Positions 10,004 to 14,715 of a stretch of 15,482 nt of DNA are shown piece after piece. The stretch is taken from NCBI GenBank assembly GCA_002792395.1, contig PFOG01000124.1, forward strand, positions 1 to 15,482, written 5' to 3'. Source of the stretch: Candidatus Portnoybacteria bacterium CG_4_10_14_0_2_um_filter_44_20. GTDB taxonomy: Bacteria; Patescibacteriota; Minisyncoccia; Portnoybacterales; GCA-002795985. Position 1 is the stretch's first letter. Each line of letters starts with the position of its first letter. Both the position numbers and the translations under genes were made by a program. Below the pieces are notes generated by a model. The model was given only the letters and a program-made list of their open reading frames with translations, was not told the DNA's origin and did no database searches.

Positions 10004-11215
10004 ATGAGCAAGAAAAAAATATACTTGGATTACGCCGCGACGACGCCGGTTGACGAGGAAGTTTTTGAAGCGATGAAGCCCTATTTTTGCGAAAAATTCG
10101 GTAATCCGTCATCTTCGCATCAATTCGGCAAAGAGACGCGCGAGGCGGTTGAGGCGGCCAGGAAGCAGGTGGCCGATTTTTTGCGTTGCAAGCCAGAAGA
10201 AATTATTTTTACCAGCGGCGCGACGGAAAGTAATAATCTGGCCATCAGGGGTGTAACAGCAAAGAGTATAGGGCAAAAGAAATCCGGCGCGGGTTTTGTG
10301 CCGCATGTGATAACGTCGTCTGTCGAACACTCTTGTGTTTTGAATGCTTGCAAAACTCTCGAAGATGATAAATTGGCGGAAGTAACATATTTGTCGGTTA
10401 ATAAGGAGGGGCTGGTGGAAATTGAAGAGATTGAAAGGGCGGTGAAAAGCAGGACGGTCTTGGTTTCCATTATGTACGCCAACAACGAGATCGGGACGGT
10501 CCAGCCGATCGAGGAAATCGGTAATCTGATCAAACGGCTTAATGGCTCACGCGGCGGAGAGCGGAGCAGCCGGATTTATTTTCACACTGACGCGGTACAG
10601 GCGATAAACTATCTTGATTGCGATGTTAATACGCTTGGAGTTGATTTGCTCTCGATTTCCGCGCATAAATTTTACGGGCCGAAAGGTGTGGGCGCGCTTT
10701 TTATAAAAGAAGGCACCTCAATTGCCAGAATTCAGGATGGCGGCGGCCAGGAATTTGGAATGCGGCCCGGGACCCACAATGTTCCGGGGATTGTTGGTTT
10801 GGGAGAGGCGATTACCAAAATAAAAAATAATGAATCAGTAAATGAGAATATCGAAAGGCTGAGCGACAAATTAATTGACGGCATATTAAAATCCGTGCCG
10901 AATTCCAAGCTTAACGGTTCGTGCAAGAAAAGATTACCTAACAATGTAAATATTAGTTTTCCGGGCGCGGAGGGAGAAGCGATTTTATTGGCCTTGAGCT
11001 TTGAGGGCGTTGCTGTTTCCACCGGATCAGCTTGCGCTTCCAGCGACCTAAGGCCGTCACATGTTTTGGTTGCCTTAGGTCTTGGCCCGGCGGATTATCA
11101 TTCAAGCGTACGCTTTACGTTGGGCAAATATACGACCGAAGAAGAAATTGGCCGCGTGTTAACGGTTTTGCCTGGAATTATTGAGCGGCTGCGTAAAATA
11201 AGTGGTCAAGCTTAG
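10004..11215 (+). CDS. iscS: Cysteine desulfurase (IscS/NifS family)
   Basis: A 403-residue PLP enzyme that takes sulfur from L-cysteine as a protein-bound persulfide and passes it to the Fe-S scaffold, and often to tRNA thiolation. Fold-type I signatures are complete: YLDYAATTP (7-15), FTSGATESNN (69-78), the PLP-stacking H109 in VEH, HTDAVQ (194-199) with D196 and Q199, and the Schiff-base lysine K222 in SAHKFYGPKG. The sulfur-accepting Cys is C344 in TGSACASSDLRPSH, the extended-loop form of IscS/NifS. Small extra segments (about 88-98 and 180-190) lie in surface loops. iscU follows after 45 nt. Expression starts from the leaderless-type promoter described above. Function is secure; iscS versus nifS naming is arbitrary. 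Confidence 0.95.
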   Translation: MSKKKIYLDYAATTPVDEEVFEAMKPYFCEKFGNPSSSHQFGKETREAVEAARKQVADFLRCKPEEIIFTSGATESNNLAIRGVTAKSIGQKKSGAGFVPHVITSSVEHSCVLNACKTLEDDKLAEVTYLSVNKEGLVEIEEIERAVKSRTVLVSIMYANNEIGTVQPIEEIGNLIKRLNGSRGGERSSRIYFHTDAVQAINYLDCDVNTLGVDLLSISAHKFYGPKGVGALFIKEGTSIARIQDGGGQEFGMRPGTHNVPGIVGLGEAITKIKNNESVNENIERLSDKLIDGILKSVPNSKLNGSCKKRLPNNVNISFPGAEGEAILLALSFEGVAVSTGSACASSDLRPSHVLVALGLGPADYHSSVRFTLGKYTTEEEIGRVLTVLPGIIERLRKISGQA

Positions 11216-11260: not shown

Positions 11261-11662
11261 ATGTCGATTGATTACTCGGAAAAAGTAATAAAACATTTTT
11301 TCAACCCGCAAAACATGGGAAAAATGGAAGATCCGGACGGCGTGGGAACGGCCGGCAATATTGCCTGCGGCGATGAAATGACGATTTGCATCAAGGTGAA
11401 AGGGGCGGCGGGCGATGACAGGGAAAATGATGTTGTTGAAGATGTCAGATTCGAGACTTTGGGATGCGCGGCGGCCATTGCCACTTCATCAATGGTTACA
11501 GAATTGGCTAAGGGGAAAACCATCAAAGAAGCGAAACAGATCAGCCTTAAAGACGTGGCTGGCGAGTTGGGCGGCCTGCCCCCGATTAAAATGCATTGTT
11601 CCAATATGGCGGCCGACGCGCTGCATAAAGCGATAGAAGACTACTTACAAAAATCCAAATGA
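11261..11662 (+). CDS. iscU: Fe-S cluster assembly scaffold IscU (NifU N-terminal type)
   Basis: A 133-residue scaffold on which [2Fe-2S] clusters are built with sulfur from the cysteine desulfurase. The three cluster cysteines are present: C36 in NIACGDEM, C69 in LGCAAAIATSS and C113 in IKMHCSNMA. The conserved Asp (D38) and His (H112) are in place. The LPPIKMHC segment corresponds to the LPPVK chaperone-recognition site of IscU for HscA-type Hsp70. Length is close to the 128 residues of E. coli IscU, with a small acidic insertion (GAAGDDREND) before strand three. It lies directly downstream of iscS, forming a two-gene minimal ISC module. No iscA, hscA/B or ferredoxin gene is in the window. 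ATG 11261 has no Shine-Dalgarno site. Confidence 0.93.
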   Translation: MSIDYSEKVIKHFFNPQNMGKMEDPDGVGTAGNIACGDEMTICIKVKGAAGDDRENDVVEDVRFETLGCAAAIATSSMVTELAKGKTIKEAKQISLKDVAGELGGLPPIKMHCSNMAADALHKAIEDYLQKSK

Positions 11663-11712
11663 TAAAATCTAAGGAGAAAACGGTAAAAGCCGTGTTGAGG
11701 GAAAGATAAAGC

Positions 11713-11900
11713 CGCAGAACCACGCAGAACAATACCCCACACAAGAAACTTCGTTTCTGTGCGGGGCAGGCGCAGAACCACGCAGAAATTTGTTCGCTTT
11801 TGGCGAAGAAATCTTCAGCGAAGCTGAACATTTTCCGCGTAGTTCCGCGTAGAAGCGAGTCCGCGGAGCGGACGAGCGGTTCAGCGTAGTTCAGCGATAG
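11713..11900. repeat. Decamer-dimer repeat field between iscU and clpB
   Basis: The unit is TTC-N-GCGT-R-G, arranged as head-to-tail dimers. On the minus strand the 17-bp CGCAGAACCACGCAGAA occurs identically at 11713-11729 and 11771-11787 (N = T). On the plus strand TTCCGCGTAG is exactly doubled at 11833-11852 (N = C), and TTCAGCGTAG with TTCAGCGATAG is at 11880-11900 (N = A). Between them are hairpins: a long stem at 11735-11766, TTCGC/GCGAA at 11793-11807, TTCAGC-GAA-GCTGAA at 11814-11828 and GTCCGC-GGA-GCGGAC at 11859-11873. The field touches the clpB start codon. I see no gene in 11663-11901 and no clear promoter. Confidence 0.75.
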
Positions 11901-11901
11901 T

Positions 11902-14520
11902 ATGCAAATAGACCGTTTTACAATTAAAGCTCAGGAGGCTCTGCGTGACGCGCATATTTTAGCAACGCAGCGTAATCATCAGCAGATCGATACTCTTCAT
12001 CTTTTAAGCGCGCTTATTTCTCAAAAGGCAACCGTGGTTATGCCGCTTTTGGAAGGATTGGGGACTAATATTTCTTTTCTTGAGGCGGAAGTTGAAAAAG
12101 GAATGGCTAATTTGGTGCAGATGTCTGGTGATGTCGCAGTCGGACAGATCTTTATTACTCAAGAACTAAACCATGTTTTAAATCAAGCCGCGACTGAGGC
12201 TAAAAATTTGCAAGACGAATATATTTCCTGCGAACATTTATTTCTGGCTATTCTTGAGGCTTCGCCGAAAGTTAAGGATTTATTAAAATCGTTTGAAGTT
12301 ACGAAAGAAAGAGTGTTGGGGATTTTGGGCGATGTTCGGGGAGCGCAGCACGTAACTGATGCGGAGCCGGAGAGTAAATATCAAGTCTTGGAAAAATACG
12401 CGCGTAATTTAACTGAGTTGGCTCGAAAAGAAAAGCTGGATCCTGTTATCGGCCGCGACGAGGAGATCAGGCGGGTAATGCAGGTTTTATCGAGGCGTAC
12501 CAAAAATAACCCGGTTCTTATTGGCGAGGCGGGTGTTGGCAAGACGGCGATTGCCGAGGGTTTGGCGCAGCGAATTACCGCTGGGGACGTGCCGGATTCG
12601 ATTAGGGACAAAGAGCTGATTGCTTTGGACTTGGGCGCCTTGATCGCTGGCACCAAATTTCGCGGTGAGTTCGAAGATAGGATCAAGGCGGTGTTAAAAG
12701 AAATTGATCGTTCAGCTGGCAAATATATTTTATTTATTGATGAACTTCATACGCTTGTTGGCGCGGGCGCGGCTGAAGGTTCAATTGACGCCTCTAATTT
12801 ATTAAAACCCGCTTTGGCGCGTGGCGAGTTAAGAGCGATCGGCGCCACCACGCTAAAAGAATATCAGAAATATATCGAGAGAGATCCTGCTCTGGAACGC
12901 AGATTTCAGCCGGTTTTGGTGACTGAGCCGTCGATTGAAGATACCATCGCTATTTTGAGAGGTATCAAGGAAAAATATGAAGTCCATCATGGTGTCCGGA
13001 TCATTGATCAGGCGCTGGTGGCGGCGGCTAATTTATCCGCCCGCTATATTAGCGATCGTTTTTTGCCTGACAAAGCGGTTGATTTGATGGATGAAGCCGC
13101 TTCAGCCTTACGTATGGAAATTGACAGCATGCCGACCGAACTCGATCGGGCCAAGCGGAAAATGATAAAGCTGGAAATTGAGCGGCAGGCGCTTAAAAAA
13201 GAAAAAAATCCGGAATCCAGATCCCGGCTAAAGAAGATCGAAAAAGACTTAGCCGAGCTAAAAGAGGCGACGCAAGGTCTTGAGATGCGCTGGAAGTCGG
13301 AAAAAGACATTATTTCCAAGATAAGGGAATCAAAGGCGCGAATTGATAAATTGAAGCAGGAAGCGGATATTGCTGAGCGCTCTGGTGAGCTGCAAAAAGT
13401 GGCGGAAATCCGCTACGGACGCATTCCAGAGGCGGAAAAAGAAATGAAGTCCGCGCAAAAGAAGCTGACGGAAATTCAAAAGGGTTCGCCGATCCTGAAG
13501 GAAGAAATAACCGAAGCGGATGTGGCCAGAGTTGTTTCGCGCTGGACCGGCATTCCGGTTGCGCGGATGCTTGAGTCGGAAGCGGAGAAATTAACCAGAA
13601 TGGAGGATGAGCTTCATAAAAGAGTTATCGGCCAAGACGAAGCGGTCAAGGCCGTGGCGGCGGCGGTGCGCCGCGCCAGAGCGGGCGTGTCAGAAGAGGG
13701 CAGACCGATTGGCTCTTTTATGTTTTTGGGCCCGACTGGCGTTGGCAAAACAGAGCTTTCTCGCGCTTTGGCCGAATTTATGTTTGATGAAGAAAACGCC
13801 GTAATCAGAATTGACATGTCGGAATATATGGAAAAACACGCGGTGGCGAGAATGGTTGGTTCGCCGCCAGGATATGTCGGTTATGAAGAGGGCGGACAAT
13901 TGACCGAAGCGGTCAGAAGGCGGCCGTACAGCGTGATTCTTTTTGATGAAATTGAAAAAGCCCACCCGGAAGTTTTTAATATTCTGTTGCAAGTCTTAGA
14001 TAATGGCCGGTTAACCGATGCCAAGGGGCGGGTGGTTAATTTCAAAAACACAGTCATTATCATGACTTCCAACATCGGCAATGAGGTATTAAGAAAAGTC
14101 TCGCTTGGCTTTTTGGCGGACGGAGATAAAGAACCGGAACAGGAAACTTCGGAAGAGATAAAATTAAGGGTTTTTGAAGAGTTAAAAAAGCATTTTAAGC
14201 CGGAATTTCTTAATCGAATTGACGAAATCATTGTTTTTCATACTTTATCTAAAGATGATTTGGCTAAGATAATTGATTTACAGTTGGCACTTGTGTCCGA
14301 ACGTCTGGCCAATAAGAAAATCAAGATTAAAGTCAGCCCCAAAGCCAAGAAGTTTTTGGTTGAAAAGGGTTACGATCCGACCTATGGCGCCCGGCCGCTC
14401 AAGCGGGTTATCCAGCAGATGATTCTGGATGAAATTGCCAAGCAGATAATCGCCGGAAAAATCCAGGAAGGCCAAAAAGTTGAAGTTGACGCTCCGGGTG
14501 ATAAAATTGTGATTAAATGA
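11902..14520 (+). CDS. clpB: ClpB disaggregase (Hsp100 AAA+ chaperone)
   Basis: An 872-residue hexameric ATPase that, with DnaK, pulls polypeptides out of aggregates. Domains in order: the double Clp-N repeat (about 1-145); AAA-1 with Walker A GEAGVGKT (208-215) and Walker B ILFIDE (276-281); a full coiled-coil M domain (about 400-525, Lys/Glu-rich), which separates ClpB from ClpC and ClpA; AAA-2 with Walker A GPTGVGKT (610-617) and Walker B VILFDE (678-683); and sensor-2 GARPLKR (829-835). Pore-loop motifs KFRGEFEDR and GYVGYEEGG are present. There is no IGF-type ClpP-binding loop. ATG 11902 begins the standard family N-terminus ([14 protein letters not shown]) but has no Shine-Dalgarno; repeat sequence abuts the start codon. 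No CIRCE element or sigma32-like promoter is visible. Length is normal. Confidence 0.97.
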
Positions 14521-14547
14521 AAAATATCAAAAAAAGGAGGTGATAGA

Positions 14548-14598
14548 GTGAAACGTTACGTTATTCCTTGCGTAGCCCACCGTTGTAGCGGCAGTTAG
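14548..14598 (+). CDS. 16-codon ORF with a perfect Shine-Dalgarno site, unknown function
   Basis: Beginning 27 nt after the clpB stop, AAAGGAGGTGAT (14533-14544) matches the complement of the 16S rRNA 3' tail over 12 bases, the strongest ribosome site in the window. Seven bases after its GGAGG, a GTG opens a short frame: MKRYVIPCVAHRCSGS, stop TAG at 14596-14598. It has two cysteines and a histidine (C8, H11, C13) and is basic. I do not recognise the peptide. A 6-bp stem GTTACG/CGTAGC inside the ORF leaves CCTT in its loop, which could pair with AAGG of the ribosome site. A GC-rich hairpin follows the stop by 4 nt. Alternatives: a translated leader or regulatory RNA that captures 30S subunits, or chance. 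Confidence 0.4.
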   Translation: MKRYVIPCVAHRCSGS

Positions 14599-14602
14599 GT
14601 CG

Positions 14603-14637
14603 AGGAGGGGCGCTTTTGTTAATTTAGCGCCGCTCCT
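14603..14637 (+). terminator. GC-rich hairpin after the small ORF
   Basis: GGAG-G-GGCGC (14604-14613) pairs with GCGCC-G-CTCC (14627-14636) with one G-G mismatch and a 13-nt T-rich loop. Only a short TTAAAAAGG follows, so on its own it is a weak intrinsic terminator. It may be a 3'-end stabiliser or part of a structured RNA together with the small ORF. Confidence 0.5.
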
Positions 14638-14656
14638 TAAAAAGGTTTTTCCGAAA

Positions 14657-14687
14657 GCCCGACATTGTGTCGGGGTATTTTTATTTT
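14657..14687 (+). terminator. Rho-independent terminator of the clpB/small-ORF transcript
   Basis: CCCGACA-TTG-TGTCGGG (14658-14674) followed by GTATTTTTATTTT. The stem shares its CCCGAC/GTCGGG core with the palindrome at 2043-2061. Its T-tract runs into the -35 of the next promoter, so the two transcription units are packed end to end. Confidence 0.75.
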
Positions 14688-14715
14688 GACGAGAAAGGGT
14701 TTTATTTGCTATGAT
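14686..14715 (+). promoter_or_regulatory. Promoter for the HtrA-like gene
   Basis: TTGACG (14686-14691, 5 of 6), an 18-nt spacer, then TATGAT (14710-14715, 5 of 6). The expected start is near 14722, giving a leader of about 20 nt with no clear Shine-Dalgarno before the ATG at 14742. Confidence 0.7.

Follow-up and report, generated by a model that had tools for sequence, protein, structure and literature searches.

Behind clpB in this stretch of DNA lie 16 codons preceded by a perfect match to the tail of 16S rRNA, and the question they raise is whether so short an open reading frame (ORF) is a gene and, if it is, whether its product acts as a peptide or as an RNA. ORFs this short usually go unannotated. 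An earlier note on this DNA had offered two readings, an undescribed microprotein with a C-x2-H-x-C pattern or an RNA that titrates 30S subunits. The window considered here is the whole stretch that was analysed, 15,482 nucleotides in length (G000:C42:1-15482), and its source assembly comprises 219 contigs and 1,017,932 bases (~1.02 Mb).

The leader, the frame and their surroundings

The features of the window to which the text refers are the following.

10004..11215, + strand: nifS/iscS-type gene (aminotransferase class V), in the same run of genes as clpB
11261..11662, + strand: nifU/iscU-type gene, in the same run of genes as clpB
11902..14520, + strand: clpB, directly upstream of the micro-ORF, with a transcript that is probably common to both
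14533..14544, + strand: Shine-Dalgarno (SD) site, a 12-base match to the usual bacterial 16S tail
14548..14598, + strand: 16-codon micro-ORF with GTG start and TAG stop, VKRYVIPCVAHRCSGS, from ORF reading and homology
14602..14638, + strand: stable hairpin without a T-run, 3 nt after the micro-ORF stop, from the fold
14658..14684, + strand: intrinsic terminator (hairpin 14658-14674 plus tail), which probably ends the clpB/micro-ORF transcript
14686..14715, + strand: promoter-like site (TTGACG, 18 nt, TATGAT), belonging to the following HtrA-like gene

The leader, AAAGGAGGTGAT, occupies positions 14533-14544, the GTG start (14548-14550) lies 3 nt downstream of it, and the frame closes with TAG at 14596-14598. 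The perfect anti-16S leader that the earlier note had placed ahead of a 16-codon ORF was thus confirmed, and it is unique in its assembly, as AAAGGAGGTGAT occurs once on the forward and never on the reverse strand of the 1,017,932 bases, with no occurrence of the backward control. Duplex energies were calculated with the usual bacterial 16S tail (a 16S gene was looked for in the window's own assembly and none was found); on this basis the leader is the strongest anti-16S site on both window strands at -19.1 kcal, the next independent site reaching -15.8. Among 15 starts picked from the ORF list, the start at 14548 scored -18.1 kcal and the 14 others were much weaker (-0.8 to -11.1), and the earlier remark that most starts in the window have no SD was therefore right. 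Across 285 genomes of the class, AAAGGAGGTGAT followed within 1-8 nt by RTG gave 135 rows compared to 4 for the backward control, so that such sites, as a class, are real initiation signals; four of the 135 rows are second readings of one site and five resemble the antisense of 16S. In the window's own genome alone, the shorter AAGGAGGT followed within 2-11 nt by RTG is barely enriched (13 versus 8 for the control), a point in favour of a chance ORF, in which 16 codons without meaning would stand behind an SD that is itself either real or accidental.

The micro-ORF and the next gene are separated by the terminator and the promoter-like site listed above; since that gene has a promoter-like site of its own, the micro-ORF most likely lies on the clpB transcript. 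The strong hairpin that had been described behind the stop is present at 14602-14638. An RNA-level function, in which the element would be a ribosome decoy or its bound 30S subunit would stabilise the 3' end, is favoured by the position of so extreme an SD at a transcript end and by the fold of 14521-14700 (z -2.86). However, the accessibility of the SD is ordinary (0.511, against a mean of 0.588 and sd of 0.175 for synonymous recodings, 36% of 300 being equally low), no Rfam match was found in the window, and the family described below conserves amino acids, not bases; we regard this explanation as highly improbable. Titration of 30S subunits is likewise not supported, because amino acids are what the family keeps. 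The earlier note had also read a CCTT loop inside the ORF as a possible switch: its pairing with the SD is present in the predicted fold, whereas the switch was not borne out, the SD being no less accessible than in the recodings.

Three further observations concern the window, its genome and its class. The nifU-clpB gap (window positions 11700-11900) contains repeated words, among them cgcagaaccacgcagaa and ttccgcgtag, and is by eye a likely intergenic repeat. Elsewhere in the same genome (L078, G000:C127, 4979-6746, minus strand) a 561-aa frame encodes a radical SAM/SPASM-type maturase, for which the best NCBIfam hit is the PapB family at 135.5 bits (cut-off 340) and which overlaps an ORF of 33 aa, MQKAQPKQRPALKVKPLPKLKVLCTCQQPSNCH, preceded by a strong SD; the two are likely a RiPP pair. 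Other short Cys-rich ORFs stand behind perfect AAAGGAGGTGAT sites in the class (L129, L137, L166, L182, L108, L119, L095), and some of them may be peptide precursors.

Homologous micro-ORFs in cellular genomes and phages

Plain searches with the window element returned little. Run over 55 genomes, its own included, blastn of 14521-14660 gave only short matches beyond itself (best E 0.0014); the SD-plus-start pattern and the CVAHRC codon pattern each matched its own genome only (1 of 93 and 1 of 383 genomes, respectively), and a pattern for the SD and start matched no stretch of IMG/VR. No phage was matched by blastn, and the three plasmid matches, all from Vibrio, lie under a protease gene at query positions 133-167, behind the ORF. 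Searches by tblastn with three short relatives against phages and one against plasmids found none, and a scan of genome contigs with the next gene's protein found a single distant locus. No genome of the window's family or genus was returned, the nearest relatives belonging to the same order only, and the window copy thus has no close relative that could show synonymous change. Five of these same-order genomes (G005, G006, G008, G010, G012) encode ClpB proteins 70-73% identical to the window's, and in each clpB is followed by a gene that starts, by eye, like the window's HtrA-like gene; no SD-led micro-ORF lies between the two. The earlier expectation that the element always follows clpB is refuted by these five genomes and by nine other cellular copies located elsewhere, and a link to clpB was rejected after reading 30 clpB loci (own included; 149 genomes had a match).

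Relatives emerged from loci behind other AAAGGAGGTGAT sites, of which 111 sites in 110 loci were read, not all 135 rows. Three micro-ORFs, in G034 (MMWMFPHATHCSCCGKERQSRARR), G012 (MRWLFPHATHCSCCGSCILSRA) and G019 (MVRFTVPRTANCSEGCPIASRARR), are alike in both DNA and peptide. A sequence model built from this trio, with the window left out, was run over 42 chosen sources and matched the window ORF from SD to stop at 14.8 bits (E 0.0026 over 130,603 bases; E 0.02 in the window's own genome), a test that is not fully blind, as the trio was noticed partly through its likeness to the window peptide. Its own three members aside, the model's other matches were five phage loci, reached through the 3' motif only, and it matched none of 33 further loci that share the perfect SD. 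The ORF L098 (MKRILPHGQNFPNPFN), which scored 12.2 bits, was excluded from the family. Among 237 genomes of the class, 28 matched at E <=0.1, of which 20 were dropped as chance or as having no such ORF and eight, window included, were kept after sequence reading. The further copies are in G014 (MRWMFPHATHCSSCGSSTLS), G108 (MRYMLPRTAHCSEGCMLMS), G187 (MHTRHWMLRETAHCSEGCRTKG..), G027 (MKRFTIPRVAHCSDGCRTRG..) and G006 (MTKKRFFVPRAAHCCEGS), the last from the same order as the window; G187, G027 and G006 score near noise (16.9, 13.6 and 13.4 bits) and were accepted on ORF, ribosome site and terminator. The codon pattern AHC[SC][DE]G matched six of 182 genomes of the phylum, and one of the six is a real copy, in G526 of another class; this ORF, MKRFMIPRVAHCSDGCAI, begins with an ATG placed 1 nt after the nifU stop codon. 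The distribution is therefore sparse (8/237 with the window, 1/182, and 1/16 within the class of G526, where only that genome has a copy), and the cellular total is ten copies, namely the window and nine micro-ORFs in other genomes of the phylum. All ten carry the ribosome site GGAG, and in all of them a terminator-like hairpin lies <=80 nt from the end of the peptide; in G027 and G187 the terminator precedes any in-frame stop.

The surroundings of the cellular copies vary. The window copy lies behind nifS-nifU-clpB and that of G526 behind nifU, the G108 copy follows an FAD oxidase with a 4Fe-4S end, the G006 copy, which has a promoter-like site of its own, comes ~600 nt after groEL, and the G034 copy lies behind grpE-dnaK-dnaJ (names read from the sequences), one more gene and a tRNA; the five remaining copies have other surroundings. 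The neighbouring iron-sulfur and chaperone genes are suggestive, although ten loci do not prove a link.

Several side observations were made around these loci. In L222, L233 and L238 (three of the ten cellular copies) a TTGACA lies 7 nt before TGnTATAAT just upstream of the micro-ORF; the usual spacing between such promoter elements is 17. In L287 and L288 the frame of the micro-ORF is still open where the terminator hairpin lies, and their transcripts should for that reason end without a stop codon. The motif GTCCCGAGCANGACGYNAAA, often followed by CTGCTC and able to form a GAGCA/TGCTC hairpin (L191, L193, L194; L195-L211 in IMG/VR; phage records), stands behind the micro-ORFs of G012, G019 and G034 and, with changes, of G014 and G108; in phages it frequently follows a stop codon closely or occupies a gap between genes, ahead of genes for scaffold or ssDNA-binding proteins or within groups of tRNAs. 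Rfam gave no match to it. It was rejected as a component of the window's element, since a search that allowed 3 mismatches gave 0 matches, and as a phage marker of the peptide family, as the 22 motif loci contain neither the peptide nor a DUF1360-like frame.

Metagenome and viral sequences enlarge the family considerably. Searching 5.8 billion clustered proteins with a profile yielded 22 candidates and, among these, 15 hits, of which 14 are at E <=0.005; one of the 14 (P0001) is the G027 ORF itself, leaving 13 further metagenome proteins, all of which have the core PR[VT]AHCS or RETAHCS. A degenerate pattern run over IMG/VR matched 45 stretches, of which 31 are distinct. The pattern required neither a stop, nor a [RK][FY] front, nor Arg over Ser; a stop nonetheless follows straight after the last Cys in 25 of the 31, [RK][FY] precedes in 28, and Arg stands in all 31 where Ser was also allowed. 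After three rows that are not micro-ORFs (L303, L312, L316) were dropped, 28 distinct micro-ORFs remain, each with a start codon, and some of the phages they come from are close relatives of one another; 25 of the 28 end in ..[KR][FY]x[IV]PRxAHCxxGC-stop. One more copy, L260, came from another pattern, and L300 falls within the 45 stretches; a further search gave three matches, of which these two were kept, and another pattern search matched 34 stretches, of which one was kept.

The amino acids of the family are under constraint. Across 32 distinct DNA copies each fixed residue is written with several codons (Pro 4, Ala 4, Gly 4, second Arg 6), and over 14 codons pN/pS is 0.23 (pN 0.19, pS 0.86), a ratio that is too low because the P, R/S, A, H, C, G and C columns were forced by the search patterns and the front part by the filter. 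The argument for constraint is accordingly made from the stop, which no pattern demanded, and from the third codon positions, which were free to vary: different codons are used for the same residues, which implies that selection acts on the peptide, and the family almost certainly functions at the peptide level. The microprotein reading of the earlier note is thereby supported, as homologous micro-ORFs with synonymous changes exist.

A gene resembling DUF1360 (PF07098) adjoins 16 of the 28 distinct viral micro-ORFs, in 15 of the 16 at <=23 nt. Five micro-ORFs lie behind this gene and directly before, or overlapping, a long ORF, which in two of the five (L300, L338) is the terminase large subunit by Pfam, with the end of the micro-ORF overlapping or touching the terminase gene start; ten are convergent with the DUF1360-like gene at 0-5 nt, and one lies 70 nt before it. 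Because Pfam finds terminase genes in L260, L300, L325 and L338, these four are phage genomes. The HMM used for the DUF1360-like gene was built from L260, L300 and L325, chosen as ORF neighbours, and the count without L300 and L325 is 14 of 26; L260 and L325 pass the Pfam cut-off for DUF1360 and L300 fails it. The phage protein is hydrophobic, with a CPxCLxFW-like stretch recognised by eye, and PADLOC gave no match for three of the DUF1360-like proteins. Among the papers searched, one, on mycobacteria, contains the name DUF1360. No DUF1360-like frame was found in the window or in the stretches around the other cellular copies, and the phage partner thus does not carry over to these loci.

These arrangements also bear on a nascent-peptide regulator, in which ribosomes would pause on the conserved codons before the hairpin and so decide what happens to the transcript end or to the gene that follows. 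The closeness of the hairpin to the peptide in cellular copies, the terminators ahead of any in-frame stop in G027 and G187, and the contact with the terminase start in L300 and L338 would all suit such a mechanism. Yet the cellular copies end at a terminator-like hairpin, the downstream neighbour is a convergent DUF1360-like gene in 10 of the 28 viral copies, in the window a separate promoter-like site precedes the next gene, and no SD switch was seen, and we consider this explanation quite unlikely.

The window copy as a probable divergent homologue

The window peptide retains part of the family signature. The front [KR]R[FY]x[IVLF]P is present in register with the start codon (MKRYVIP), as is the A-H pair with His four residues after Pro (PCVAH), and the GGAG ribosome site and close terminator-like hairpin are those of the other cellular copies. 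The Arg/His after Pro and the Cys directly after His are both absent (PC and HR instead), each one transition from codons seen in relatives, and the window copy is classed on that account as a divergent homologue rather than a typical member. It ends GS-stop, with Ser for the last Cys; the GC end is not strict, however, as GS closes the G006 copy too and CG is found in the HATHC copies. Its Cys and His residues are therefore C8, H11 and C13 instead of HCxxGC, and the C-x2-H-x-C pattern of the earlier note holds for the window copy only, whereas the family signature is HCxxGC.

We compared the window peptide with its relatives by permutation. In 100,000 shuffles, chance likeness was rare against G006 (3e-5), G526 (2.3e-4), G027 (4.1e-4) and G108 (1.4e-3) and the remaining six relatives gave weak results (0.05 to 0.57); the summed alignment score over ten relatives was reached by 140 of the 100,000 shuffles (1.4e-3), and the sum against the first trio alone (G034, G012, G019) gave 0.023. 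An HMM of 43 other cores, with the window left out, ranks the window ORF first of 843 six-frame segments, but with no more than 8.1 bits (E 0.11 over these segments); 13 of 20 random 100-kb sequences attain that score somewhere, so that a blind search would have missed it. The 43.2 bits given by the R2 profile are no test, because R2 contains the window. That low score, and the lack of close relatives among the genomes returned, count in favour of a chance ORF with an accidental likeness to the family. Against this, the perfect SD and start single out one ORF beforehand, and that ORF matches the family in register from start codon to stop; we therefore rate homology of the window copy, judged from sequence, as very likely, though not certain, and chance as improbable.

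If the family is real, the window copy could still be decaying, with two signature residues one transition off, the last Cys replaced by Ser and the SD a remnant. It is alone among the ten cellular copies in lacking a Cys directly after His/Asn, and its low score in the HMM built without it would fit decay; the SD and frame are nevertheless intact, the same-order G006 copy likewise ends GS, and two Cys and a His are retained in a new spacing. Decay therefore appears unlikely, and we think it probable that 14533-14598 is a real 16-residue microprotein gene, a divergent homologue of the [KR]R[FY]x[IV]PRxAHCxxGC family of Patescibacteria-like genomes and uncultured phages.

Possible function and comparison with known systems

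As a microprotein gene, the window locus would yield its peptide at the 3' end of the nifS-nifU-clpB run, and the product would act as a peptide, not as an RNA. Its basic-aromatic-Pro-Arg front probably docks on a protein partner, which in phages may be the DUF1360-like protein, and its Cys/His end may bind a metal ion or thiol, in the window copy with a C-x2-H-x-C ligand geometry. The metal or thiol step is possible for the family, at somewhat less than an even chance, and less probable for the window copy. A bolder proposal, which we hold to be rather unlikely, is that phages keep the peptide beside the DUF1360 membrane protein as its working partner, that Patescibacteria took it over and placed it behind iron-sulfur and chaperone genes, and that the HCxxGC end and the CPxCLxFW-like stretch form one shared metal or disulfide site, which would make this one of the smallest widely shared protein families. 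The prediction that peptide and DUF1360 act together is testable in E. coli. Near-invariant residues within 16 codons, in phages with different terminases and in Patescibacteria-like genomes, are a rare handle on the function of both the microprotein and DUF1360.

The PRxAHCxxGC microprotein family, as delimited here, is apparently undescribed. A literal literature search for the family's peptide strings gave no match, and none was found on SD-led small proteins of Patescibacteria. The GMSC small-ORF catalogue predicts ORFs of >=30 nt from metagenomes (PMC11364881), and family members may for that reason well sit unnamed in it. Compared with such anonymous entries, no described family, function or phage neighbour was found for the peptide.

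The phage DUF1360 (PF07098) neighbourhood is alike in 16 of the 28 viral micro-ORFs, whereas the cellular loci lack a DUF1360-like frame. Radical-SAM RiPP precursors resemble the family in being short Cys-containing peptides behind a strong ribosome site, but a peptide of 16 residues is too short to include a leader, and no RiPP maturase was found among the window proteins scanned. Regulatory leader peptides, such as TnaC and SecM, share with the micro-ORFs a very short frame, a strong ribosome site and a hairpin behind it; they differ in that the cellular copies described here end at a terminator-like hairpin and the next gene in the window has a promoter-like site of its own.
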